Positions 7,700-64,000 of a DNA stretch of 64,000 nt are shown here, in pieces. The number at the start of each line of letters is the position of its first letter. The first letter of the stretch is position 1. Origin of the DNA: Apostichopus japonicus (Eukaryota; Echinodermata; Holothuroidea; Aspidochirotida; Stichopodidae). The DNA lies in contig NC_092579.1 in NCBI RefSeq assembly GCF_037975245.1, forward strand, positions 16,144,178-16,208,177, written 5' to 3'. The notes under the pieces are model-generated. The model saw nothing but the letters and a program-made list of their open reading frames with translations, had not been told where the DNA came from and did no database searches. Both the position numbers and the translations under genes were made by a program.

Positions 7700-8425
7700 T
7701 TAAATCTGACGAATTGAAAAAGGTTTAAGTATTAGTTCAATTGGTTGGTCGTAACAAATGATTTAATAATCAACCACTTCCCGAAGAGAGCAGAGCATCA
7801 CTTCATGAAAAAATCTAGGTTATATTTTTTACGCTTCAACTTGGAAGAAAGACCAAACAGCACTTAAATGTTTCTCCCGGGACTCACAGTGGTCCAGCCC
7901 ATCCTGTCACTGCATTCTAGTATACCTGTCATCATGATTGAATTTTTCCTTTCACTAAGTCCAACCAGTAAAGTTTGGAAATGAAGTTATTCACAATGAC
8001 ATTACCAATTCGACCACCCCTATTCCTGATTCCCTTGTCAAAGAATACTTTTTACCCATCAGTTGTGATGTCATTGCTCTTAGAAATTCAATTTTTCACC
8101 ATAATGAGCAAAAGTAATGGCTTATAAGCCATTAAAATGAGGGCGCTGTTAAAATGAGGGCGCTTTTAAAATGAGGGCGCTGTTATCAATTTAGTGAAAT
8201 TTTGAAAGACACACATATATGGGGAAAAAGACACAGAAACACATATTTGGAAAATTACCCTCAATCCCGGGACACGGCTGAAAACGCCTTGGGAGCTACA
8301 AGGACCCCACTTTGGACATCCTCCACCGTTAAAAAAGTCGGGACGTCAAATTTTGTCCTGACTTTTCAAAATGTCCTGACCTTATAGGTGTGTTTTTTTT
8401 TTCATGTCCTGACATTCAAGGTATG
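7700..8425. other. no gene recognised
   Basis: No coding exon was found between the end of the array and the CATA tract. A 17-bp motif (AAAATGAGGGCGCTGTT) is tandemly repeated about three times at 8130-8182. Confidence 0.5.
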
Positions 8426-8426
8426 G

Positions 8427-8881
8427 TGCATACATACATACATACATACATACATACATACATACATACATACATACATACATACATACATACATACATA
8501 CATACATACATACATACATACATACATACATACATACATACATACATACATACATACATACATACATACATACATACATACATACATACATACATACATA
8601 CATACATACATACATACATACATACATACATACATACATACATACATACATACATACATACATACATACATACATACATACATACATACATACATACATA
8701 CATACATACATACATACATACATACATACATACATACATACATACATACATACATACATACATACATACATACATACATACATACATACATACATACATA
8801 CATACATACATACATACATACATACATACATACATACATACATACATACATACATACATACATACATACATACATACATAC
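8427..8881. repeat. (CATA)n microsatellite, ~455 bp
   Basis: This is an uninterrupted tetranucleotide array of more than 110 units. Long open frames across it (IHTY on one strand, MYVC on the other) come from the 12-bp codon periodicity and are not genes. Confidence 0.98.
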
Positions 8882-8985
8882 TATGAGCATGTCCAAATTT
8901 ATATAGACATGTCCAAACTAATATGAGCATGTCCAAAATAATATGAGCATGTCCAAAATAATATAAGCGTGTCCAAAAAGAATAG
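8882..8985 (+). repeat. ~20-bp minisatellite (ATGAGCATGTCCAAAATAAT)
   Basis: About five imperfect copies of a 20-bp unit with core GCATGTCCAAA directly abut the CATA array. Confidence 0.85.
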
Positions 8986-9784
8986 GGAATTTTCGAGTCA
9001 AACTACCCTCTACAAATGTGTACAGTGAACATGTAGGCGTTTGAAGTTACGCCGTGTGTTCCAAATAGTAACTTTTATATTGGTATGTCGATAAACAAAT
9101 TCAGTTTATCAATACCTTATTTGGAGTTACTCTGTATCAACAGGGAGTTGTTTTCCATAACAACTCCCTGGTATCAAGCGACACCATGGTTATCACTATG
9201 ACATTATAATATTGCATTATTCTTCAGTTTTTGTTAATTAAATAATATTATATTTGTGAATAAAATAAAGACCATCACCTCATTTGTTTCTTTTCAACAT
9301 CCCTTCGTATTGTGAGTGGTTTCGCCCTGCCTTGAAGCGTTAAAAATATGCATATTATATGCGTAGGCAAAGAAGTTTACGTACGAAAGTACGAAAAACA
9401 TGAACATGCGCTAACAACGTTTTAACTAGTACACAGTTATCACACATGCGTAAGAATTGTGACCAGTGGCGTAGCCAAGTGGGGGGGGGGGCGTGGGGGC
9501 GATAGCCCCCATGAAAGCTTGTCGCACCCCAGTCGCCCTCCCACTGGGATTTGAGTGTCGAAAAAAAAATTACATGTGCGAAAATATATATCTTTGGTCT
9601 GAATGGTCTCGAATCTCCATGATGACCACTCATGAACGACCCTTCGGACCGGCAGTAGGCTATAGTTGCTGAAAAACCTGACGTGACATAGCGCATAGGC
9701 CGAGAAAACATCTACAGAAGTCGCACTGTACTGAAAACACATGTTAACGACCGTCGAATTATATATTTCCTGCTCTAATAAATA

Positions 9785-13114: not shown

Positions 13115-16100
13115 ATTCTTATATATATTATTATTTATTATTATATTATTATTATATTATTTATTATTATAAATATTATTTATTTTTATTTTTTTTATTT
13201 TGTGAAATGTGATGAATACATCTGGCAACTGTTTGTAAAGTAACATTGTTGTTAATACAAATGGAGCTGGAATTCTTACTGATGTAAAAATCAAATCATA
13301 GAAGAAGGTATTATATTTGGAAAGAATATATGTTTTTCTTTTTAAGTAAAGAGAAAGTTACGACAAGTTAAACCCGAGCAACTCTACAACTTTTCATATA
13401 GAAAACAGTGACCAGCTGCCTAAACTCTTTCCAAAACAACAAGTCATCGTAAAGGGTCACGCGCATTAAACACTGCAGATCATTTCCTGCGGAAAGGCTG
13501 TTAAATCCATTGAGGTGGAAAGTCGTTATTAGAGACGCCACAAACAAAAAAGTAGTAAAAAAGTGCTTTTTTTGTGTAATGTGATAATATACAGAAATTT
13601 TTACATTTTTGTGGTCCTCTCAACTCAAATGACGGAGCACCTTTTTTTGACAGAAATAGTGTTTTTTCTTGGTTATCACCTTATCGGGTAAGAAAACTTC
13701 TAACGGATTTTTGATAACTATATGCAGGCCTCTATCAAAACTTATTAGAGGTACCAATTTTATTCCCCGCTACAACCCCCAACCGCCCCCAGAGGCCATA
13801 GTGATTTACATTAATATGTGTACAGTTAAACTTCCGACCATGGAGGTTCGACATACGAATTCCTGGAAATTAAAATTCTGGCCATCACAATTTGGATTCC
13901 CAACACTTCCAATAGGTGAGTGAATGTGTTGTAGTATAATACCATCTATGAATTTGTTGTATGCATCAATACCGCATGTCATAATGACTAACTCTTTTTT
14001 TCAAACATGCAAGGTTTGTCTCTCTACATGCCATCTCCACGACACATTGAAAACTTGTGTAAATCTCTCTGTTTTTCTCTCTCCACCCACCTCTCTCTCT
14101 AACCCCCCTCTCTATATATCCTATTTTAATGTATACAGGATACAAGTTTTGATGAATGCGTAGCAAGGAATCTTTCGTACTGTGTTCCAAAATTTGATCA
14201 ATATCTGAAGTATTTTTGCGGAGATAGTCCCCTTTGTAGGTAAGTATATGAACATTTAGTTTGTGCCTCGATATTAGTATTTTCTTTGTGACGAATACTC
14301 TGTTTGTTACTCCAGGAAGTGAAATATATCTGTTGGTTTATATAAGGCTGTATTATACTTTGTTATTGAACTCTTATGACCTTTGAACTTCAACGAGAAC
14401 CCTAAGGGTTTATGTAGTAACTACGATACATCTGCATGCTAAAGAAGTAAGTCTGTTCAGTCCAATCAAATGTCTGGTCGATAATTTCATGTCGGAACTT
14501 TAACTTTTCAGATATCGTTTTTGCAAGGTTTTTAGACTCTCGTTTATGTTTACTTAAAATGACCTTACATCAACACTGCAAACAAACATTTGGAGATATT
14601 GTTTGTTTAACATGGTTTTAGGACTTTGACCTCTGTTAACGCGAGCACACTCCCAAATAGACACCCACACACACCTACACACGTTCTATGGTGCGCCTAT
14701 TGTGCCACAAGTCCTGAAATCGACATATGTCCAATTAAATTTACAAATGTCGGTTTCTCTTGCTCTCATTGGACGACCATTTTCACATGTTTTTTTTTCT
14801 AGCGCTCTAATTGGCAGAAATCGACATATGTCCAACGAGAGCATGATAACCCCCCCCCCCCAAAAAACAAAAAAACAAAAACAAAAACAAAAAACAAAAA
14901 CAAGACTAAAAGATGTTAACTTCGTTAAGCCATCTTAACGTGTACAGAATTCTATTGAATGTCTGTACATCAGTATGGTTATTTGTAGCCTGGTCTGGAT
15001 TTGATGTCTAAAAGAGGGGGAGGCGTCCAAGGGGAAGTGACATTTTTCATCTTTCCGAAAAGCCGCTTAACTGGCTTGATTAACCCAATCATAACAATTT
15101 CTTTGTGTGATAAGTGTTTATTTCTATGCAAAGTTCTCGATCAAGCTTCTTTTTTTCTATCATTTCTTAGTTACATTAAAGTAATGTAAGTGTATGATTG
15201 TTCCGTGAAATGGGTCATCATATTTGACTTACTGACTTAGGTGCGTAGGACGCTGTGTCACTTTGCCCTCTGGCGAGTAATCCTCCTCCAATCTGGTCTA
15301 TCTGCTGCGCAGCTTTCAGCAGCTTGGGTTGTCATACCTAGGTCTTTCTGGATTAGGTCCTTCCATCTTGAAGGTGGTCGTCCTGGAGGTCTTGGCTTGC
15401 TGAAGTCATTCTTGAATGCTTGGTATGGAAGCCGATGCGCCGGCATCCTAAAGACATGGCCGGCCCATTTCAGGCGTCTCTTGCAGATTGCAGTCTTAAT
15501 GGTAGTTGTGACATTCAGCCTTTGTCTGATGGTGTCGTTCCTCACTTTATCTAGGATGGAGACACCCAGTATTGCTCTGAGACATCTCATTTCAAAGACA
15601 TCAAGTCGATGACGATCTTTTTCACGGAGTGCCCAGGATTCAGAGCTGTAAGTTGCTATTGGTAGAATGAGGGCCTGGTAAATCCTTACTTTCAGGGTCC
15701 TGGTGATGTCATGATTTGACCAGATGGTATTTTTAAGTCTCCCAAAAGCCCAGGAAGCCAACCTTATGAGGCGTTTGACGTCTTCTTCCATTGAGGGGAC
15801 ATTGCTGCCAAGGAAGACAAAGTTGTCAACTTTCTCAACAGGTTCTTGGTTAAGGAGAACACCTTAGGTGTCTTCAGACATTATTTTACACTTTGTTTTT
15901 AAATATCATATTTGCTTTTAACTATTTTGTAACTTTCATTTTGTTTTTCTTTTCCCCCCCTAGAACTCACGAAGCTTTATCGATATCCAAATCAAATTTC
16001 GAGTCATATTTAGTAGTCGGTTTAACTGAAGAGTTCAGATCTTTCATTCAATTAATCGAGATACTTTTACCAGACATATATGAAGGAATTCTTGCAGATT

Positions 16101-47029: not shown

Positions 47030-50000
47030 CCAACATGGTACAATATTAGGGGGTGCCATCCCTCCCTGGGGTGAAAGAGGGGTTATTTCGAGAAAAAAAC
47101 CGAAAAAATACAAAATTTAACATAAAAGGCTAGGGAGGAAACCCGCTTTTGGACCTTGCAGGCCTTACCACGCACAGGGGCCTGGCCCTTTTGAGCCCAT
47201 TTTGACAGGGTATCACCACTAGGGTGTCTGCTGTCTAAAATGGTACAATAAAGGGGGTGCGATTCCTCCCTGGGGTGATACGGGGGGTTATTTATAGAAA
47301 ACCCCCGAAATAAGTCAATAATTTAACGTTAGAGTATAGGGAGGACGCCCGCTTTTGGACTTTGCAGGCCTTACCACGCACAGGGGCCTGGCCCTTTTGA
47401 GCCCATTTTGAAAGGGTACCCCCACTAGGGTGTCTGCTGTCCAAAATGGTAACATATTTAGGAGTGCGATCCCCCCTAGGGTGATAGGGGGGGTTATTTT
47501 GTGAAAAACCCCGAAATAAGTCAATAATTTAACGTTATAATACGGAGGAAACCCGCTTTTGACCTTGCAGGCCTTACCACGCACATGGGCCAGGTCTTTT
47601 TGAGCCCATTTTGACAGGGTACCACAACTTGGGTGTCTGCTATCCAAAATGGTACAATAATTTTGAGAGCGGTTCTCCCTGGGGTGATATGGGGTTATTT
47701 TGAGAAAAAAATAAGTCAATAATGTACGTAAGACCGCTTTTGGACCTCTTTTGGACCATCCTCACGCCGACACATCGGATTTCAGCGACAACACTATTTC
47801 AGGGTAAGTAGCAGAGACTATCAGCTTGCGTTAGCTATCAAGACCGTGTAATTATCTTATCAGGAAAGGTAATTTGTCAATATGAATTCTATTTATGGGA
47901 AAATAGGGGTTTTTGTTTTGAAAACTGTGAAAAATACGTCTTCTTGAACCCCCTCTCCTGTTGACTGGGGGCACTTTTAAAGGTGAAACTTTCAACGTTG
48001 TGGTAGATGGGAGGTCCAGCTATTAGAATTTATTACAAACAGGTGAATTGCTGCACCAGAAAGGGGTATAGTCGGTACGTTCTAGAGGCCCACCCAAAAA
48101 TAGGTGTTTTTGTGCTTTAAGTGTTAACATTTTGTTGGAAAATGCCGACTTTTGACATTTAAAACGATACCATGGTTACTAAGGTAGTTCAATTCTCCCC
48201 CCTTCGCAGTGGACCACCACTAGTGTGTCTGCTGTCTGAAATGATATAATTAATGGGGGTGCGATTCCTCCCTGGGGTGATAGCGTTATTTTGAGAAAAA
48301 CCCCGAAAAAATACAAAATTTGACATGGAGTTTATAGAGAGGAAACCCGCTTATGGACCTTGCAGGCCTTACCACGCACAGAGGCTTGGCCCTTTTGGGC
48401 CCATTTTAATAGGGTACCACCACTAGGGTATCTGCTGTTCAAAATGGTACAGTAATTGGGAGTGTGATCCCCCCTGGGGTGACAGGGGGTTATTTTGTGG
48501 AAAACACCGAAATTAGTCAATAATTTTACGTTAGAGTATAGGGAGGAAACCCGCTTATGGACCTTGCAGGCCTTACCACGCACAAAGGCCTTGCCCTTTT
48601 GGACCCATTTTGACAGGGTATCACCACTAGGGTGTCTGTTGTCCAAAAGAGTAACATAATGAGGGGTGTGATCCCCCCTGGGGTGACAGGGGGGTTATTT
48701 TGTGAAAAACACCGAAATTAGTCAATAATTTAACGTTAGAGTATAGGGAGGAAACCCGCTTTTGGACCTTGCAGGCCTTACCACGCACAGGGGCCTGGCC
48801 CTTTTGATCCCATTTTGACAGGGTATCACCACTGGGGTGTCTGCTGTCCAAAATGGTACAGTAATTGGGCGTGTGATCCCCCTGGGGTGATACGGGGGGT
48901 TATTTTGTGAAAAACAACGAATTTAGTCAATAATTTAACGTTAGAGTATAGGGAGTAAACCCGCTTATGGACCTTGCAGGCCTTACCACGCACAGAGGCC
49001 TGGCCCTTTTGGGCCCATTTTGACAGGGTACCACCACTAGGGTGTCTGTTGTCCAAAAGAGTAACATAATGAGGGGTGTGATCCCCCCTAGGGTGACAGG
49101 GGGGTTATTTTGTGAAAAACACCGAAATTAGTCAATAATTTAACGTTAGAGTATAGGGAGGAAACCCGCTTTTGGACCTTGCAGGCCTTACCACGCACAG
49201 GGGCCTGGCCCTTTTGATCCCATTTTGACAGGGTATCACCACTGGGATGTCTGCTGTCCAAAATGGTACAGTAATTGGGAGTGCGATCCCCCCTGGGTGA
49301 CCGGGGGTCTTATTTTGTGAAAAACAACGAAATTAGTCAATAATTTAAAGTTAGAGTATAGGGAGGAAACCCGCTTATGGACCTTGCAGGCCTTACCACG
49401 CACAGAGGCCTGGCCCTTTGGGCCACAGGATACCACCACTAGGGTGTCTGTTGTCCAAAAGAGTAACATAATGAGGGGTGCGATCCCCCCTAGGGTGACA
49501 GGGGGGTTATTTTGTGAAAAACACCGAAATTAGTCAATAATTTAACGTTAGAGTATAGGGAGGAAACCCGCTTTTGGACCATGCAGGCCTTACCACGCAC
49601 ATGGGCTTGGCCCTTTTGAGCCCATTTTAACAGGGTATCACCACTAGGGTGTCTGCTGTCCAAAAGTGTCACATAATTGTGAGTGCGGTTCCCCCTGCGT
49701 GATATGGGGTTATTTTGAGAAAAAACCCGAAATAAGTCAATAATGTACGTAAGAGTATACGGAGAAAACTCGCTTTTGGACCTCTTTTGGACCATCCTCA
49801 CGCCCACACATCGGATTTCAGCGACAACACTATTTCAGGGTAAGTAGCAGAGACTATCAGCTTGCGTTAGCTATCAAGACCGTGTAATTATCTTATCAGG
49901 AAAGGTAATTTGTCAATATGAATTCTATCTATGGGAAAATAGTGGTTTTTGTGTTGAAAACTGAAAAAAAAAATACGTCTTCTTGAACCCCCTTCCTTGT

Positions 50001-52580
50001 TGACTGGGGGCACTTTTAAAGGTGAAATTTAAAAAAGTTGTTGTAGATGGGAGTTCCAGCTATTAGAATTTTTTACAAACAGGTGAATTGCTGCACCAGA
50101 AAGGGGTATAGTCGGTACGTTCTAGAGGCCCACCCAAAAATAGGTGTTTTTGTGCTTTAAGTGTTAACATTTTGTTGGAAAATGCCGACTTTTGACATTT
50201 AAAACGATACCATGGTTACTAAGGTAGTTCAATTACTCCCCCCCCCCCCCTTCGCAGTGAACCACCACTAGTGTGCCTGCTGTCTGAAATGGTACAGTAA
50301 TTGGGGTTGCGATTCCTCCCTGGGGTGATAGGGTTGTTTTTTTGAGAAAAACCCCGAAAAAGTACAAAATTTGACATGGAGTATAGGGAGGAAACCCGCT
50401 TATGGACCTTGCAGGCCTTACCACGCACAGAGGCTTGGCCCTTTTGGGCCCATTTTAACAGGGTACCACCACTAGGGTGTCTGCTGTCCAAAATGGTACA
50501 GTAATTGGGAGTGTGATCCCCCCTGGGGTGACAGGGGGTTATTTTGTGAAAAACACCGAAATTAGTCAATAATTTTACGTTAGAGTATAGGGAGGAAACC
50601 TGCTTATGGACCTTGCAGGCCTTACCACGCACAAAGGCCTGGCCCTTTTGGGCCCATTTTGACAGGGTATCACCACTGGGATGTCTGCTGTCCAAAATGG
50701 TACAGTAATTGGGCGTGTGATCCCCCTGAGGTGATACGGGGGTTATTTTGTGAAAAACAACGAAATTAGTCAATAATTTAAAGTTAGAGTATAGGGAGTA
50801 AACCCGCTTATGGACCTTGCAGGCCTTACCACGCACAGAGGCCTGGCCCTTTTGGGCCCATTTTGACAGGGTACCACCACTAGGGTGTCTGTTGTCCAAA
50901 AGAGTAACATAATGAGGGGTGCGATCCCCCCTAGGGTGACAGGGGGTTATTTTGTGAAAAACACCGAAATTAGTCAATAATTTAACGTTAGAGTATAGGG
51001 AGGAAACCCACTTATGGACCTTACAGGCCGTACCACGCACATCGGCTTGGCCCTTTTGAGCCCATTTTAACAGGGTATCACCACTGGGGTGTCTGCTGTC
51101 CACAAGTAACATAATTAGTGGTGCGATTCCTCCCTAGTGTGACAGGGTTTTTTTTTTGTGAAAAACACCGAAATTAGTCAATAATTTAACGTTAGAGTAT
51201 AGAGAGGAAACCCGCTTTTGGACCTTGCAGGCCTTACCACGCACAGGGGCCTGACCCTTTTGATCCCATTTTGACAGGGTATCACCACTGGGGTGTCTGC
51301 TGTCCAAGATGGTAACATAATTGGGAGTGCGATCCCCCCTAGGGTGATCGGTGGATTATTTTGAGAGAAAAAAATAAGTCAATAATGTACGTAAGAGTAT
51401 ACGGAGAAAACTCGCCTTTGGACCTCTTTTGGACCATCCTCACGCCCACACATCGGATTTTAGCGACAACACTATTTCAGGGTAGGTAGCAGAGACTATC
51501 AGCTTGCATTAGCCATCAAGACCGTGTAATTATCTTATCGGGAAAGGTAATTTGTCAATATGAATTCTATTTATGGGAAAGTAGGTGTTTTTGGTTTGAA
51601 AACTGTGAAAAAATACGTCTTCTTGAACCCCCCTCCTGTTGACTGGGGGCACTTTTAAAGGTGAAACTTAAAACGTTGTGGTAGATGGGAGGTCCAGCTA
51701 TTAGAATTTATTACAAACAGGTGAATTGCTGCACCAGAAAGGGGTATAGTCGGTACGTTCTAGAGGCCCACCCAAAAATAGGTGTTTTTGTGCTTTATGT
51801 GTTAACAATTTCAGGAAAATGCCGACTTTTGACATTTAAAACGATACAATGGTTACTAAGGTAGTTCAATTACTCCCCCCTTCGCAGTGAACCACCACTA
51901 GTGTGTCTGCTGTCTGAAATGATATAATTAATGGGGGTGCGATTCCTCCCTGGGGTGATACGGGGGTTAGTTTGAGAAAAACCCCGAAAAATACAAAATT
52001 TAACGTTAGAGTATATAGGGAGTAAACCCGCTTTTGGACCTTGCAGGCCTTACCACGCACAGGGGTCTTGCCCTTTTGAGCCCGTTTTAAGAGGGTACCA
52101 CCACTAGGGTGTCTGCTGTCCAAAATGGTTACATAATTGGGAATGTGATCCCCCTAGGGTGATACGGGGGTTATTTTGTGAAAAACACCGAAATTAGTCA
52201 ATAATTTAACGTTAGAGTATAGGGAGTAAACCCGCTTTTGGACCTTGCAGGCCTTACCACGAACAGGGGCCTGGCCCTTTTGAGCCCATTTTAACAGGGT
52301 ACCACCACTGGGGTGTCTGCTGTCCAAAATGGTAACATAATTGGGAATGTGATCCCCCTACGGTGATAGGGGGGTTATTTTGAGGAAAAAAAAACAAGTC
52401 AATAATGTACATAAGAGTATACGGAGAAAACTCGCTTTTGGACCTTGCATGCCTTACCACGCACAGGGGCCTGGCCCTTTTTGACAGGGTACCACCACTA
52501 ATGTGTTTGCTGTCTAAAATGGTACAATAATTCTGGGTGCGATCCCGCCTTTGGGTGATAGGGGGGTTATTTCGAGGAAA
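47030..52580. repeat. satellite array, ~205-bp unit with higher-order structure
   Basis: About 18 copies of a unit containing GTGTCTGCTGTCCAAAATGG, a C-run/G-run pair, GTCAATAATTTAACGTTAGA, GGAAACCCGCTTTTGGACC and GCAGGCCTTACCACGCAC are spaced 201-209 bp apart. Three longer inserted modules of about 460 bp interrupt the array (see separate entry). Open frames across the minus strand arise because the unit is close to 68 codons; they have no start, domain or splice support. Confidence 0.95.
47735..48215. repeat. interspersed satellite module 1 (copies at 49775-50260 and 51405-51890)
   Basis: The module contains CCTCTTTTGGACCATCCTCA, CATCGGATTTCAGCGACAAC, AGCTTGCGTTAGCTATCAAG and TGCTGCACCAGAAAGGGGTA. 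Near-identical copies occur at about 49775-50260 and 51405-51890, each followed by a restart of the 205-bp units. This defines higher-order units of about 2.04 and 1.63 kb. Confidence 0.9.
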
Positions 52581-52599
52581 AAATATGCAATTGCTTTCC

Positions 52600-55500
52600 C
52601 AATACGCCACATTGACCAGCACGTCGAGCACTAGATTGGTCAATTTGGCAAAACTTAAAAGAAAACGTGTTTAATTGGAAATTTTATAGAGAATTCTTGG
52701 AAAGAAAATCCAATTACCAATTCTTTAAGATTCGCTGAAAAAAACTTCCATAAATCGTTTCACACCTTGGATATTTTTACCAAAACAAATCCAAATGAAG
52801 TGTAATACTGCAGCATCATTTACGCTCACCACTCACGTCAAAAAATAATCAAGGTTATACTAAAATGTTAACAGTTGCATTTTTACGGAACTATTAGATT
52901 TTGTTATAATTTTTGTATTGATAGATGAAGCAACATTTAAGACATAATATATATCAATTTCAAGCTCATATGTCGTCCGGTTATTTTTTATGAAGAATTT
53001 CTGGGTGTATTTTTGTTGTCATTTGGTACACTTTTGATTGGTCAATTTGGCGACGGCACTGGATTTTTGTCAAATTTGGCATGAAAACATACTATTTCGG
53101 TGGAAATAATACCTTTATGGTTATTCCACGTGAAACACAATATATTCGCCCATCTATATCAAGAAAAAATTTGCATATACACCCATATTTCGTTAAGTTA
53201 TCAAATAATATACCTCAAAATCGTCGCGATTTGATACTTATTGCAAATATACAATTAAGGTCGCAAATTGCTTTTACCCCCAGCTTTGGGGTTACTACTA
53301 CAACGAAAATACTCTCTAAGGCAAAATTAAGAAAATTGTAGCCATAAAGCTAAATACTTCTTGAAAACACTATGATATTTATCAAAATTCGCCATCTAGT
53401 GCGCAACACCCAAACTCAGCGGATAGAGGGCGGCCTTCATGGTCTATTTGGCATTATGAGTAAAAGCAGCGAATTAGGCTCGTCCTATAACATGTGACCT
53501 GTGATTTCAGAATAGCAATTAACAATCTTTTATTATACTTGCGTATATTTATCAAAACGTTTATACTTTTCTAAAGTCGTGCTATATTTTTAAGTTTCAG
53601 TTTACCATATCAGTCCCTTCGAAATATGACTAAATACGTTATTTTTCAATTTAAAATGGAATTTGGTCATATCGGCATTAAATTCTATCTCAAAACTCAA
53701 TAAGGGTGAATAAATATTAGAAAATTATCAAATACTGTATAAAAATGATGGATTTGTTTGGAGGGGTGGAGGGAGGGGGGGGCAGGAAATGTCGAATGGT
53801 AGCTATTATAGGGGTCTATTATGTGATTTGAAAGGCAAAAAAAAAAAAAAAGCTTTTAAAATTGTGAGACTACCAGCTCAGACAAGATGAAATGAGCCAC
53901 ACGGACACTTTTTTAAGTCAGTCACATGGATGTTATTGGCGACTTTACAAACTTTAGTAAAACAAACGTTAAAGTCATTGACATGAAGAAAACATAAATG
54001 TTGTTCTAAAAATGACATTAATCAAATGATGTTGTTGTGTGCATTATTAATTTGTTTAATGTAAAAAAAATACCATCAACAGAATAAGGATGTTGTGTTT
54101 ACATAAGATCACTGTCATACAATGAAAGTGCTGCCACACAATGAAAGTGCTGCCACAAATCTCTGTCCGCACCTTCCTAATTCTACGACAATGTAGTAAT
54201 TCATGAAAATTGATATCTCATAGTACATAAACTAGGTAGAACATTGTAAATGAACATTATATGAAATTTATGCATTAAAATTCACATTTATTTACATGCT
54301 ATTTCAATTAATAGAAAAACGGCAGATCTCATACCAACAACCACGTATGTCATTGACACTATGTAAAAAATTGGCTATCGCCTAAACAGATATGAGATGT
54401 AGGCCTATATAATTATCCTTCTAATTGAACATTTATTCACAAATGTGATTGCATAGAAATTCCCAAATTTAATCCACCATTGACAATTCATACTACCTTT
54501 TAACTTTTGAAATGTTTACAGAAGAGCTTTTTCACATTCTCCTAAAATGTATATACAATAAATTGGCTAATTTGATTGCAGCACAATTTCAAAATTTAAA
54601 ATTAATATCCACAGTATAAATGCAACTTTTACACATATTTCAAAAGTGTATAAGCATTCATTTTTCTATATAATGCGTTCAAATAAGTTCTGTGGTATCT
54701 CTGGCTGCTAACTTTCGATATAACCATGTCCAAACAGAGACATTAAATCACAATAATTACACGAAATCAATACAGACAGGAAGTAAACCTTATTTCGTGT
54801 GTAGCAGTTTGATTACTTTCAAATATTCCACAAAGCATAAACAAATGCCGATTACATACATAGAAAACATATGATAATGCTTTCCAATGTAACAGACGAC
54901 ACCCTGCATATCACATATCAAAGGAGTCTGAAAGAATTGACTTTCTTTGTTGAAAAAAGGTTAGACCATGCAAGCATACATGTTTAGTAACGTCAAGAAA
55001 ACTGGAACATTTAATGGAATATCTTTTTAAGACATATTGGGGATTTTCATTTTGAAACTACTTTTTTACTGTTTTTGAAACTACTTTTCTGGCTTGAGGT
55101 TCATAGGGAAAACGACGTTGCATACGAAGTCGAAGCATAATACGGAATTTTGAGCATGACGTATGTATGCATGATATCAACAAAAACAATATGTATCATA
55201 ATACTGATCAATGCATATACCAAGTAGGACAACAGTCACATATAACCATCTTGAGATATAGTGTTGAGTGTATAAGCATCATCTAGACGATTTCAATATG
55301 GCTCCTCCCTTTCGTGAATATTAATGATTCTACAAATACATGACAGGAGCATGTTTGGTATGCATATTGACACCATCCCACCAAAATGTCAAATTTAATC
55401 GGTATAAGTCAATTGTATCCGACATACAACAATTTAATTCGAGATAGACCAGTGTTAATTGACATATATTCATATAGCTCATTAACATATTCCAAATCCA

Positions 55501-56474: not shown

Positions 56475-58956
56475 TTACTTTTCATTCCTAGAGTGACGGA
56501 TCCTATCATACACTTGTTGGAAGGTAAATTTTTTCTGAAGAGCTTCATCAGCATCATAAATCTTTAGTGCCTGAATAAAAGCAAAAAAAACAATACGGAA
56601 ATTGTAACAAAATGAAAGATCCTTAATAATGGTGCTTATTCACCAAACGGTCAATCTTAAGCTATTTGTATATGGTCAATTTCATAATCAGTGGTGTAAC
56701 TTTCAATATTGACACTTATTTAACCATCATAGGTGAAGAATGACTTAAACTGCATAATAAATTGTCAACCGTTTATCAAAGCAGCTGTGGAGAAGGGCTG
56801 CAAATTCATTCACTCCTTCTTTACTTTCGTTGTCCATTTTACTATTATGGTATTTGTATTTACATCCAAATCACCTATATGTTGTTTCTTGTTTTCATGT
56901 TGATATTTGTTTTATATTTTCTAGTGGGGGGAGGGGGTTAAGACTTATTGCTATACCATGTTTATAGTCAATATGAAATTTGCTCAATCCCTCCAACTCC
57001 TAGCCAACAGTATATAGCCAAAACTCATTCATTTATACCTCCAGAATGGAGTTAAGACATGGCTGCACTTACATCTATTCCAGCAACTACTACATGAGCC
57101 AAGATAAATAAGAAACCTCTGTATTCATATTCTGGTAAGGTGGGATGGAGGGGGGGGGGGGTGTTATTGGAACTGCATGCTTCATCTATGTTGCGTGGTC
57201 AGAGTTTTCTCTAGGACTGGCTTTATGTTTTACCCGACATTTTATTTTAAGCCTGTTTTTTCCTGAAATTGTACCTGTAGTACATTGTTTTCTAGTATAT
57301 TGCCAAAATGCCAATTCTGTTTGACTCCTTGATTTTATTGCTATAGCCATTATATTTTATACTTATGTAAGAGGGGCTAAAATCTAACTTCTTCTAAAAT
57401 GAAGGGTGGATTAATTGTATATTTAAATACTCACAATATCTTTAATTCGGATTTCCGGATGACTTCTTATCAATTCGGTATAACGTCCCATAAGGCTGTC
57501 TACAATTTGTTTTGTAAAAAATGCCCGATTTGACTTTTTAACCACCTGGATTGAAGAAAATAACATGCACCCTTACTTCATATAACACAAATAGAAGGAA
57601 ATCACTCCAACCTTTTTATATTATAAATTTGGTGAAAAATGTAAATATCTAAACAGATGACTCTTCACTGAACACTAAGCATGTGTAGGCAGTAGCGGAC
57701 ATAAGCAAACATTTATCAAACTTTTCAAAGGTCATCTGAGGTCACCAGTGGTCAAACACTAAACTATCTTAGGAAGTATAGGTGTCATACTTGGTGTATG
57801 GAAGTACTGTACCTTCTGGACTGCAAGAACCAACAAAAAGAGGTCAAGTTGGACACATCTCATACATGGTGTTTGGATTAATTGAATTGAGTCCCAAACC
57901 TACCTATAACCTACCACACTATGTTCATTTGATATACGGTACATACACGATGACTAAGACACAAAACATAATTTAACTATAATTCATCCACATTTATTTG
58001 TGGTTTATTATTTGCATAAAAAAAAACAACAACTCACCATTATGTTAGACAAGCAGGGTCCTTTTTTGTTCTGTGGTTGAAAAGAAGTAGATGTGGCCAT
58101 TTTGAATGCTTTTGGTGGGACATATGGCTAATTGAGAGATATCAAAATTACAAATACATGAGTTGCAAAATATATTTAACATTTATGAAGAATTAAGTAT
58201 AGAATCAATATTTTGACGGGTTCTGACTGTCTCTAAAAGAAGTATACTATTTAATACATTTCTGAGGAATGTTGTAATGAAGGAAAGTTAAAGTTTGATT
58301 TTCTTCAACAATATAAACCAGATCAAAACAAGTGGGGAGGCTTTATTTAGTCAATATGCTTCAATTAGCATTTGCTGCATCTTTGGCATTTATTTTTGTC
58401 GATACATGCATAATGCAGGTCAGTATAAACAGGGTAGTAATTCCATGTTATAAATATCTTCTCTTGCTCTGGTATACTGCAGTTGGGTGTTATACTGGTG
58501 TCACCCCAAATATAACATTTTATTTAGAGGATTAATTCTTGTACTTACATCATCATCATTGTTATCACAGTGGCTATCTTCCACTTCCTCTTGTGCAGAT
58601 TCTTCATAACTCTTTAACTGAAATGTAATGTTTTAATGCAATGAGTGGAAGAAAGTACAGAATGATCATAAGCTTACATAAGTTCATTGTAAAGTAATAG
58701 TGTTGTCTATGTAATCATGTTTCAATGGTAACTGTCAAAAATGCATCTGTTGTATTATTGAATATGATATTGATTATATAATATAGGGGTCGGGCTCTTC
58801 ATGGCAAACTCCTCTTAATGTAGTGAAGAAAGAAGGCTTCAAGTTGCATTAGTTGCATGTACAATATGTACAATTCGACATGAAATGTGGTAAAAATCTG
58901 CAGAGGTTATATTAAGACTTCAGAGCTTATGAATTTGAAGAAGCAATGACACTCAC

Positions 58957-59222
58957 CTCAGAAGGTGCATTCATAACATGTGATTCTTCTGGAGCACATG
59001 ACTAGAAAAAAAAAACAGAAAATGAAAATGGTCTGCATGCCAAATAATGATAGTTTGCTTGTTTTGACCTGCAGTTGTATATTCTGACATGAAATGTGGT
59101 AAAAGTCTGCAGAACTTTTAAGACTTCAGAGCTTATGAACTTGAAGTAGCAATGACACTCACCGCAGAAGATGCATTGCCAACAACCATTTGTCGTCTGT
59201 TTTCATCCCCTGGAGCACATGA
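58957..59222 (-). repeat. duplicated small exons with flanking intron
   Basis: Exons 59163-59222 and 58957-59001 both begin TCATGTGCTCCA (SCAP), end before GTGAGTGTCATTGC and are preceded by TTTTCTAG. Their downstream introns share AAGTCTTAA, GCTCTGAAG-type and TCAAGTTCATAAGC-type strings. This is a tandem exon duplication. The copies differ in length by 15 bp, a multiple of three. Confidence 0.75.
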
Positions 59223-59391
59223 CTAGAAAAAAGCAGAAAATGATCTGAATGCCAAATATACTGATTATTTACTTTGTTTTGACCCGCAGTTGCATATTCA
59301 TATTGACAACAGAGAGCACACATATTCATCCTTTGATGCGGTCTGGATTCATCCTATGTCATGAGTTAATTACTTAATTGGGAAGTTAGCA

Positions 59392-59724
59392 ATGTCACTG
59401 TCCTGGGCCAACTCAAGCAAAATTCAACAGCTAGACAGTTTGACAACCTGCATACACATTTGGATATGCAACAACTCTGTAAAACCACCACTACAGCGGT
59501 CTTATTGTGGAGCCTTCAAAGTCCTTCAGAAAGATAACAAACATTACGTCCTGGACATTAAGGAAAGGCAAAAAGGTTATGTTTGCTGGATTGTTTACAA
59601 ATACAATACCTGGGTGGCAACATCATTGCAAGTAGTGAATGATAACTTTCATGTAGCATCCATGTCCCTGCCTCAAGAGTTTGAATCCTATCCTGATTTC
59701 AGAGTGACAAGAGAAGTGACATGA
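59392..59724 (+). pseudogene. Ty3/gypsy-type pol C-terminal fragment in antisense
   Basis: The plus-strand frame reads LDSLTTCIHIWICNNSVKPP, LQRSYCGAFKVLQKDNKHYV, LDIKERQKG and so on. This matches the region after the integrase core in Ty3/gypsy retrotransposons (VRxDxVKPPLQxPYxGPFKVL). No core integrase, reverse transcriptase or LTR was seen. The fragment lies in the intron between recombinase exons 59759-60156 and 59163-59222, in the opposite orientation. Confidence 0.75.
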
Positions 59725-59835
59725 TTTCACTAAATATTGTTAAACTTTAAGAACATACCCCATCATCAAGCAGACCTCCTATGATATGAGATGCCCTGCA
59801 AGCATCGACGGCTGAGTTGGCAGCTCTATAATAAG

Positions 59836-60080
59836 TATGTATGTATGTATATTAGATCCTCCTGCAAGCAGGAACTCGCGAAGAAGCCTAATTAGCTTAT
59901 CAATGCCGCAAGCTGACCGAAGTCAGTCTCTCACATTCATATTTAACGTCCATGATTATGAATTGTTAATTGTCAACAACTCTGTAACTGGACGACATAC
60001 ATTAATCTGGGAGTGACTCGAACCAGGGACCTTATGATTGAAAGGCACCGGTGTTAACCACTGAGCTAACACTGCATAAG
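59836..60080 (-). mobile_element. tRNA-derived SINE inserted in recombinase exon
   Basis: On the minus strand the head has an RNA polymerase III A-box-like TTAGCTCAGTGGTTA (60055-60069) and a B-box-like GGTTCGAGTC (60015-60024), spaced as in a tRNA. A tRNA-unrelated body follows, ending in an (ATAC)n tail (59836-59852). The 5-bp repeat ATAAG flanks it at 59831-59835 and 60076-60080. Excluding the insert plus one repeat copy (245 bp) leaves 153 bp, exactly 51 codons in phase 0-0. Confidence 0.85.
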
Positions 60081-61309
60081 TGGCCTGTGTATTTTCATGG
60101 TGGGCCATGTGCTGGGAGATGAGGGCACGGTTCGATGCAGACTGGGATGCACAAGACTGAGAAAGAAACAATCACTACATTTTATGTATAATTTGACAAT
60201 TTTGTCGCACTATTTTTGAGAAGGTGGTACTGACATTTCGTGCGATAGGATTCGGAATCATGCCTGGATCAATATATATGGTCTGTTTCGATCAGCTGGT
60301 TTCTGACACTTCAGTCATTTAATCAGTTTTTCTTGTGACCATGCCACTCAAACAATGGAGCATTTTTGAGAGTTATGCAATATGTGTAAATGTATCATTA
60401 GAATGAAGGAATATTAAATTTGTAAAGTTGCGAGGAAAAAATCTTAAGAATCTCAGAAAGTAAAAGTAGCACAAAAAACAAATCAAGATTGGTATATACC
60501 CAGGTTGCAATTGTTTTTCTGATGTTTTTCTGATGTTGACTGGTGTGAGATGTTGCACACCCAATGACGCCCCTATCCTTTCAACATCCTGTGCTACACG
60601 TAGCACTGCCTTGCCGTTCACACCGATAAACAGGGGGGTTGAGGGGTGGTCCATCGAGGAAGCATTGGGTGTCTGCAACCTGAAATTTGTGATGTACGCT
60701 CTGCACCAATTGTATAGTTCATTTGGAAGAACGACTTGTGCAGGCCCATAAGTTGCAGATGTTTTATGCTGTGAGACCTATCATAAAGAAGCATAATATC
60801 CGAAATTTGAAAAACCTCTAGTTGTTTTTGCATATGATCAAATGTGATGCATATTACATGGGGACTATTGAAAACATTCCTACAGCCTATCTGGCTACCG
60901 AGCAACCCACATTCATACCTATATGCAAGGTGTTTACAAGTAACATACATGACATGTTATGAGGTCTGTGCTCATAGCCCTCGATCTGAAATAACATGGA
61001 AAGACCAATTAATAGGCTTAAGAAGGTGCAGTGATCCCAACAAAAATGAAGCATGTAACTAAATTTAAAATAATAAGTAAACTGTTAACTTTACATTTGA
61101 GCATGGAACATTCAAATGATTCAAACCTTTATAACCCAAAATGATTCCAGTTGGCCCATCAACAAATCTTCTGCCTCTCCAAATTCGCCTAGAGTCATGT
61201 TGGTGACCACACCACTTCTGCAGCCACCATGGAGTAGAATGTTGGCAATGATGAGGTTCCTATACCTCCTAATTTTTGCCCAATCAAGGGAACTTGTCGT
61301 ACAGAGACC

Positions 61310-62365
61310 TGAAAAAAAGTAAATGCATACTTTGTTTGAGGATGACAAAAAGGTATAGTATAATTATATGAATTGCACTTGTTGTTTAAAGTTATTTCTA
61401 TTTGAGGTCACTTGGAGACAATACAGCAGGAGCTAATTTGTTTTTAAATTGAACTTTTCAAAATAGATTTATGAAGAAATTAATAAAAACATTGTGAAAA
61501 TATGTCCCCCAACTTCGATAAGCTTACAGAGCAGGTCATGGTAGGTCAGGATGTGGCAGAAACAAGTTATTGTAGTATACTCGCTCTCTTCTGCTAGATC
61601 GAGCTGTAAGTGTGATTTGCACCCATAGCTTTGAAGACTGAATGCAGAAGAGAAGCTATAGTTTCTGAATTATTTTGATGGATACCTAAGAGAATTGAAA
61701 ATAGACTATGGTCTTGAAATTACAAATTACTTAATAAACTGTGGATTAATGAAATACTTTTTTGTCCTGTTTTGCATTTCATGAAAGATAAGGTTGAAAG
61801 GCCAGCTTGCTGGTAAGTGTAGCTAGCATGTTGGGGAGGGGGTGATAGTGGCATTGTGTATGATACTTATTGTCGACTAAACAAGTGTTCATTCATACTT
61901 AGTAAAGATTCCTAAATCCTATTGGTTCATTCAGGTCAGCTGACTGTGGTTAATCCTGTGAGTAATGCACGGTAAAATTACAGGGCATCACTTTAATAAA
62001 TCTTTGGTTATATGTAACCAAAAATGTTTTGTTTTATGATTTTTTCCTCCACACAAATGGTAGTGTATGAATGAATGGGGTGAATCAACGGTCTAGCATG
62101 CGTTTCTCACATGATTAATGCACTCCGGGTGTTAATGCTATCGCTGGATGCACTCGGGCTCCGCCCTCTTGCATCGCTTGCATTATCCCCCGATCGTGCA
62201 TTAATCCTGTGAGTAACGCATGCTAGACCGTTGATTAACCCCTTATTAACAAGATTGCTGATCCTTCTAGTTTCGGCATGTGTTACTGGTTATAACACAC
62301 TTTTCACTATATATATTATATCTCACCTGGATATTTTTTATTTAAGTTGACAAAAATGAACTTAC
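61310..62365. other. intron of recombinase-like gene
   Basis: No exon is supported. The stretch contains the inverted-repeat element described at 62077-62242. Confidence 0.5.
62077..62242. mobile_element. short inverted-repeat element (~166 bp)
   Basis: The left arm 62077-62122 and right arm 62197-62242 are about 46-bp imperfect inverted copies (AATCAACGGTCTAGCATGCG ... CGCATGCTAGACCGTTGATT). The loop is GC-rich and CpG-containing (TCGCTGGATGCACTCGGGCT). A related half-copy (TTAATCCTGTGAGTAATGCA) lies near 61952. Confidence 0.75.
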
Positions 62366-62437
62366 TCAATAGACCATTCACCTCTTCTGCTGAAGCCTTT
62401 TTGAATTTTTTGATTGCTTCTTGTGATAGAAGGATTC

Positions 62438-63586
62438 CTTGAATGTTAAAATAATGACAATCATATTTTCAATTCCAAACAGAGATGAGAAATAGTTTGA
62501 ATTATGATGAACCCATACTATTTTAGAACTGTCATGAACAGAAAAGAATGATAAAAAAAAATTAAAATATTTCTGTTCCTTGTCTTGTGTGAATTGACAA
62601 TCCTTTCATCAGACAGAACTATGTATACACCAACTTTGTTTCACTGTCAATAAAACACCTCTTATTGTCCCTTCATCTTAGAGAGAATGTAATACTGAAT
62701 GACCAAAGTTAGGTCATGTACTTCTCATTACAATTGACTGTAATAACTTACAGGAAACTATCATGCATGTTTGCTTCTATTATTTATGGCTGATACAAAC
62801 AGGCTTGTGAGCATTCATAGACACATGTCACATAAAACTTGAAAGTTTATCCACAATACTTATAAATGCCAAAATTACAAGTAATTGAAATCATAATGGA
62901 CCCAAATATGACACATATTTTTTGGTAAAAATTCTCAAACATGTGGTAAATGTGTTGTTTGTTTTCATATTTACTTATTTTGTTGTCTGTTAGGAATGTT
63001 GTAGAAATTATGTAAAAGGTGATCAATGTACAATTGGTACTTACCGTGTTGTATACTTCTACTATGTCAGCTACACATGTGATGTCAAACTAGTATACTT
63101 TTCAATTTAATCTTGATGATTATGTTCTTTGTTTGTAGGGTCTTTTTAAAGGATGCCATTAACAGATGTGATTACATTATGTTGTCAGAGCCATGAGAAT
63201 TAATATGCCCCCCCCCCCCTTTCAAGCAGTAGGTGCATCTGTGTCATGCATAGTCAATACAATAGATGTTCGATGTATGCCATGAGTCCCAGCAGATGGG
63301 ATCATGCCTCTGTGGGTATGGTAAACGTGGGATGGCTGAGAGGGTTGAGTGTGTCATGCGAGTCTCCAAATTTGTTAATTAAAGTATGTCTCTTGTTTAC
63401 AATTTTACTTTTAGTTACCACTCATTTTTATCCTTGCATTAATGTTAAAACGTTTACTCTTAATGGTTGTATTGTATTCCATTTATTGCTAGATGTCAGA
63501 GTCAGTTACACAGAAATCTCATTGTGCATATGTATCCTATGAGGGAGCATATGTTACATATGGAAATGGAAAGGTTTATTGGTTAC
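62438..63586. other. intron of recombinase-like gene, no exon recognised
   Basis: AT-rich, with a short C-run near 63210. A plus-strand open frame at 63493-63765 overlaps the minus-strand exon 63587-63816 and is taken to be its antisense. Confidence 0.5.
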
Positions 63587-64000
63587 CTGCAATTTGGGAT
63601 CGAAGAAATTTTTCTCTCCGTAATGCCTCCGGCCTCATTGATGACACAAAATCATCTACTGCACGCACCATGCGGTCAGCAGATGCCACTGTAACACCGT
63701 TGGTGCTTGCGGCGCTGGTGTTGACAGCTAAAAAATTAGCCAGTTTTTTTAAAGATAGCAAGTAGCATTGGATGGTTTTTGGCTGCTTGCCATCATCATT
63801 TAGGAGTTCTACAGTTCTGAAGGAATAAGAACAAAGGTGTATTTGAATGAAAGAAAAGGGTAATTAGTTTTTCAGTTTTGTGCCAAGAAGGCTGCAGAAA
63901 AGCTGGTATTGCACATGCTGTAGAAGCATCCTAGATATATCAAGTAATGGGCAATTCCACGCAAACAAGGACATGACATGAAAAAATTACAATCTTTCTT

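Follow-up and report, generated by a model that had tools for sequence, protein, structure and literature searches.

A probable pseudogene of a tyrosine-recombinase-like family in Apostichopus japonicus, carrying both a SINE-like insertion and an 11-bp duplication

Introduction

The gene considered here lies on the minus strand of the window, i.e. the whole 64,000-nucleotide stretch of Apostichopus japonicus DNA that was analysed. One of its exons resembles the His-to-Tyr segment of tyrosine recombinases (YRs) and is split by a SINE-like repeat at a pair of Tyr codons. An earlier note on this DNA read the insertion as a single, decisive loss-of-function event. Did the SINE end the life of this gene, and what kind of gene was it? 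Pseudogenes are common in duplicated families, as are SINEs in exons, so a single event of this sort matters little. What the locus offers is a clean illustration of why a lesion is best weighed with the entire gene and its paralogues in view. On that basis we consider it highly probable that the gene is a decayed member of a tyrosine-recombinase-related family, broken at least twice, by an 11-bp duplication and by the SINE, and that either lesion would have sufficed.

Results

Gene model

Eleven exons can be drawn on the minus strand between 63816 and 56475. Ten have AG/GT borders, and the eleventh has AG followed by a stop codon at its end; all of these borders are predicted from the sequence. 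As numbered here, exon 1 (63587-63816) covers a putative core-binding-like region, for which the Pfam family Phage_int_SAM_4 returns an E value of only 0.08, under its cut-off. Exon 2 (62366-62437) is followed by exon 3 (61127-61308), which contains the Arg I motif GCRSG, and by exon 4 (60500-60777; 278 nt), which runs from the region of the conserved Lys as far as Arg II and whose end is not in phase with exon 5 (59759-60156; 398 nt). Next come exon 6 (59163-59222; 60 nt), exon 7 (58957-59001; 45 nt) and exon 8 (58549-58617; 69 nt), each open and with AG/GT borders. Exon 9 (58038-58070), also with AG/GT borders and an open frame, is only 33 nt long and is tentative. Exon 10 (57435-57545; 111 nt), again open with AG/GT borders, resembles by eye C-terminal exons near paralogue L010 and on C16, and exon 11 (56475-56570), which ends in the stop codon, similarly resembles the last exon on C16. 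In all, exons 1-3 and 6-11 are open. Further exons probably lie upstream, beyond the window, where an open stretch on the same strand is like an N-terminal part of L010; two zinc-finger-like stretches are also visible there by eye on that strand.

A processed pseudogene was considered and rejected, as introns are present. Two neighbouring stretches that contain exons 6 and 7 (58830-59240) resemble a tandem duplication, in that both exons begin SCAP and the introns look alike by eye. Separately, 62090-62225 has the look of an inverted repeat, starting near gcatgcgtttctcac and ending near gtgagtaacgcatgc, and by eye is possibly a MITE.

Exon 5 is a single exon split by a repeat

Exon 5, bordered by the acceptor TTTCTCAG and the donor GTATGT, contains a 240-bp repeat at 59836-60075 (minus strand), with copies of a target-site duplication on either side, reading ATAAG on the plus strand: 60076-60080 on the gene's 5′ side and 59831-59835 on its 3′ side. 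When the flanks were joined by script with the repeat left out, they gave 153 nt, or 51 stop-free codons, in agreement with the earlier note. An open frame is by itself poor evidence here, since 95 of 154 joins were open when a cut of the same size was moved along the exon, and at least 8 neighbouring joins shared the best score in this control. It is the match to paralogues that carries the case for a single exon. The joined peptide aligns to L010 with 26 identities and to L011 with 25, over 50 aligned residues in each case and with no internal gaps across the join; the alignment to L016 is weaker, with 16 identities. The segment forms one uninterrupted open stretch in L010 (on C1) and in L011 (on C20), and likewise, in the weaker match, in L016. 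The two halves thus correspond to a single exon in these relatives, which is also the outcome of checking whether the paralogues hold the segment as two older, separate exons. Together with the abundance of the repeat family, described below, this upholds the view that a SINE-like repeat sits inside one exon.

Counting from the joined-exon alignment, the conserved His codon is the 19th of exon 5 (60100-60102). The first Tyr codon, at His+8 (60076-60078), is the last before the repeat, and the second, at His+9 (59828-59830), which probably encodes the nucleophile, is severed from it by the repeat. An insertion site at the Tyr-Tyr pair, with the first Tyr codon directly before the repeat, is thus as previously described.

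A query of the 25 residues preceding the repeat recovered L010 (E=0.006) and L011 (E=1.5), all three candidates being scored; the value for L011 is weak alone, and its probable kinship rests on the longer alignment. The same search revealed no SINE-free second copy of the locus in the assembly, which may carry one haplotype only: three places matched, and just the window's own did so at 100%.

The repeat belongs to an abundant family

Apart from the window's own place and a 29-base fragment, a single DNA search returned at least 39 matches at 96–99% identity, confined to the repeat part, from 40 scored candidates out of 2621. The family, whose absence elsewhere would have spoken against a SINE, is thus abundant and its members closely alike. 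Seven aligned copies begin alike near GGAGTGTTAGCTCAGTGG and end in a (CATA)n tail. At 4 of 240 columns the window's copy departs from the base most common among them, and one of these changes is also present in L003. These seven are the best matches to the window's copy and show that close relatives exist, rather than how old the family is; the SINE in exon 5 appears fairly young. Its target duplication is 4 to 6 bp long; the (CATA)n tail merges with the duplicated bases, which leaves the exact length ambiguous. By-eye inspection of the seven other copies showed clear target duplications in just two, L003 and L007.

Like tRNA-derived SINEs, the repeat is about 240 bp long, ends in a simple repeat, lies between short direct repeats and exists in many near-identical copies; by eye, its head carries what we take to be box A/B-like motifs. 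It differs from them in that its target duplications measure only 4-6 bp and its head is missed by tRNA programs: ARAGORN found no tRNA at the repeat head, and Rfam found none over 58000-64000 at E≤1. Within the window, the SINE head was matched once in a pattern search. Elsewhere in the window, a long four-base array of the CATA type, the unit of the SINE tail, occupies 8382-9002.

An 11-bp duplication breaks the frame in exon 4

At the end of exon 4, Tandem Repeats Finder reports a perfect 11-bp tandem duplication of 2.4 copies (60512-60537, minus strand; 100% matches). In a DNA alignment, the three paralogues compared at this point (L010, L016 and L014) are all without those 11 nt. As read from the assembly sequence, the duplication is a frame-breaking lesion. 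It shifts the frame such that exon 5 is read out of frame and translation would end there with or without the SINE, which argues against a single decisive event. Starting from exon 1, predicted translation of the gene spliced as it stands terminates at the very start of the repeat, after 283 codons; with the flanks of exon 5 joined by script, it ends after 297 codons, still within exon 5. The His and Tyr codons are out of frame in both cases, and no uninterrupted frame through them was found in the window's copy. With 21 perfect tandem runs of 8-30 bp units in the window (short-period units filtered out), such a duplication is not rare in itself. What matters is its location in a coding exon and its length, which is not a multiple of three.

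A small, duplicated gene family

The assembly searched comprises 671.6 Mb in 35 contigs. A protein search with exon 4, in which all 17 candidates were scored, gave 9 matches, and a second with part of L010, with all 20 scored, gave 14, the window's own place included each time. These matches lie on C1, C16, C17 and C19, and several of those on C1 are paired, a few kb apart; L011, on C20, was found with the exon 5 query only. The 13 matches of the L010 search outside the window represent 11 places, four of which contain stops (L022, L023, L024 and L027), and two of these four are also split across two frames. Exons 1 and 5 of the C17 copy (L045) are altered relative to the C16 copy (L044), the first by a 4-bp gap and the second by one additional base, and both differences change the frame. 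Decay is thus common in what is a small, multi-exon, duplicated, recombinase-like family. L044 and L045 are very similar YR-like genes, their likeness extending through the introns; two alignments of these copies gave mean column identities of 84% and 93%, overhangs and gaps counted, and reached no end of the similarity.

Evidence for a tyrosine recombinase

In all three spliced paralogues, Arg I, Lys, Arg II, His and Tyr-Tyr are invariant and occur in this order. An additional His, located three residues ahead of Arg II in the pattern, is not conserved here, with I, L or T in its place. Nine residues separate the His from the second Tyr, the same as from the His of XerD to its Tyr, and this spacing favours the second Tyr as nucleophile. 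In L011 the Tyr-Tyr site reads Cys-Tyr, so that the second Tyr alone is kept. An hhalign comparison, on the other hand, opened a gap and paired the first Tyr rather than the second with that of XerD. The second Tyr is probably the nucleophile, which would place the SINE directly before its codon. The claim that the SINE lies at the catalytic Tyr codons accordingly needs refinement: the site is indeed between the two Tyr codons, but the favoured nucleophile is the one that follows the insertion.

Profile searches point in the same direction. The phrog_216 integrase family was the best hit for two of the three spliced paralogues (best E=2.3e-4) and for both of two longer peptides (about 4e-4). 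Pfam Phage_integrase (PF00589; curated cut-off 27.1 bits) matched two of the three paralogues under that cut-off, at E=0.005 at best; of the longer peptides, one scored E=0.009, below the cut-off, and that of L010 had no match to any Pfam family at E≤1. Among five pieces of the gene in the window there was one sub-threshold Pfam hit and none to PF00589, and a search of the genome itself with PF00589 gave 32 matches, none at the family's places. Against five recombinases (XerD, XerC, Cre, lambda Int and a DIRS-like YR), hhalign gave E=6.8e-4, a probability of 27% and an alignment in which Arg I, Arg II and His coincide. No recombinase was found among PDB sequences, where one search gave two unrelated weak hits and the other was empty. 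The AlphaFold model, which covers the exon 3-4 part only, is poor (pLDDT 52.5), and a viral-contig scan yielded seven pattern matches, none confirmed. Tyrosine recombinase is hence the best reading of these genes rather than a proven one, drawing on weak profile scores and the residue pattern. The affinity first suggested for the gene is borne out with modest support, from that pattern, phrog_216, sub-cut-off Pfam matches and hhalign.

The DIRS-like row of the five-recombinase alignment is the YR of L048. By eye, this locus is a DIRS-like element, in which a 393-aa YR frame adjoins a long frame with the look of RNase H.

Discussion

The window's gene looks like an ordinary pseudogene with two or more breaks, rather than one felled by a single decisive event. 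The 11-bp tandem duplication in exon 4 shifts the frame. The SINE, for its part, presumably reached exon 5 through ordinary LINE-driven retrotransposition, with a 4-6 bp target duplication, and came to lie immediately ahead of what is probably the catalytic Tyr codon. Either lesion alone would remove the His/Tyr end of the protein, and the gene is probably without a useful product. Since the exons other than 4 and 5 are open, the gene may have been lost recently or in part only. No targeting would be needed to explain an insertion next to the Tyr codon: many other sites would have served, and attention fell on this one only in retrospect.

The SINE may or may not have hit an already dead gene. 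It is possible, though we think it somewhat doubtful, that the SINE came first and was decisive, and that the 11-bp duplication arose later in a dead gene. This is a sub-case of the explanation we prefer, such that confidence in the one overlaps with confidence in the other. The exactness with which the repeat splits the His-to-Tyr segment, and the open state of all exons except 4 and 5, would fit this order; yet the duplication is sufficient by itself, and no evidence was found that dates either lesion before the other.

It is improbable that a shortened protein is still made, which would retain zinc-finger-like and core-binding parts and bind DNA in the manner of Crypton-derived host genes that lack the Tyr. 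A stop in exon 5 of 11 is expected to trigger nonsense-mediated decay, and no close orthologue for a test of selection was found here, whereas the open frames of exons 1-3 and 6-11 would be compatible with such a protein. So would the report, in PMC3212892, of Crypton-derived host genes that are expressed and have lost their catalytic Tyr. Finally, the reading of the flanks as two distinct exons, with the repeat in an intron, can be dismissed as extremely improbable: no evidence was found in its support, the segment is uninterrupted in L010, L011 and L016, and direct repeats border the element.

It is the family that is unusual. Its genes are rich in introns, and their YR-like domain, with the catalytic residues retained, is preceded by motifs that by eye are zinc-finger-like. 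The paralogues share with phage integrases and XerC/XerD (PF00589, phrog_216) the series Arg I, Lys, Arg II and His, with a Tyr at His+9, arranged as in XerD. They differ in lacking the His before Arg II, in scoring below the Pfam cut-off, and in being intron-rich animal genes, of which the window's copy is broken. Like Cryptons and the host genes derived from them, they are eukaryotic and YR-like, with several copies in a single genome. Crypton-derived host genes include KCTD1, KIAA1958, ZMYM2-4, QRICH1 and WOC, as given in the same source (PMC3212892). DUF3504 host genes have lost most catalytic residues, whereas the paralogues here keep R, K, R, H and Y. Unlike Cryptons, the family has zinc-finger-like motifs upstream, as judged by eye.

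Titles and the opening parts of abstracts yielded no published description of the gene family and no name for the SINE, which says little about novelty. There is some chance, albeit a small one, that these are undescribed, intron-rich animal genes combining zinc-finger-like motifs with a tyrosine recombinase whose catalytic residues are kept, and that some members are active, either as host genes or as slow-moving elements. Should some members keep recombinase chemistry, this could matter for DNA rearrangement in animals.

Other open frames are present on the minus strand of the window. Those at 47315-52670 contain a recurring motif such as KITPCHPRGDHTPNYCTILDSRHPSGGTLSKWAQKGQ and lie partly in the window's most GC-rich 4 kb, and those at 1078-1757 and 15258-15863 resemble, by eye, C-terminal parts of LINE reverse transcriptases.
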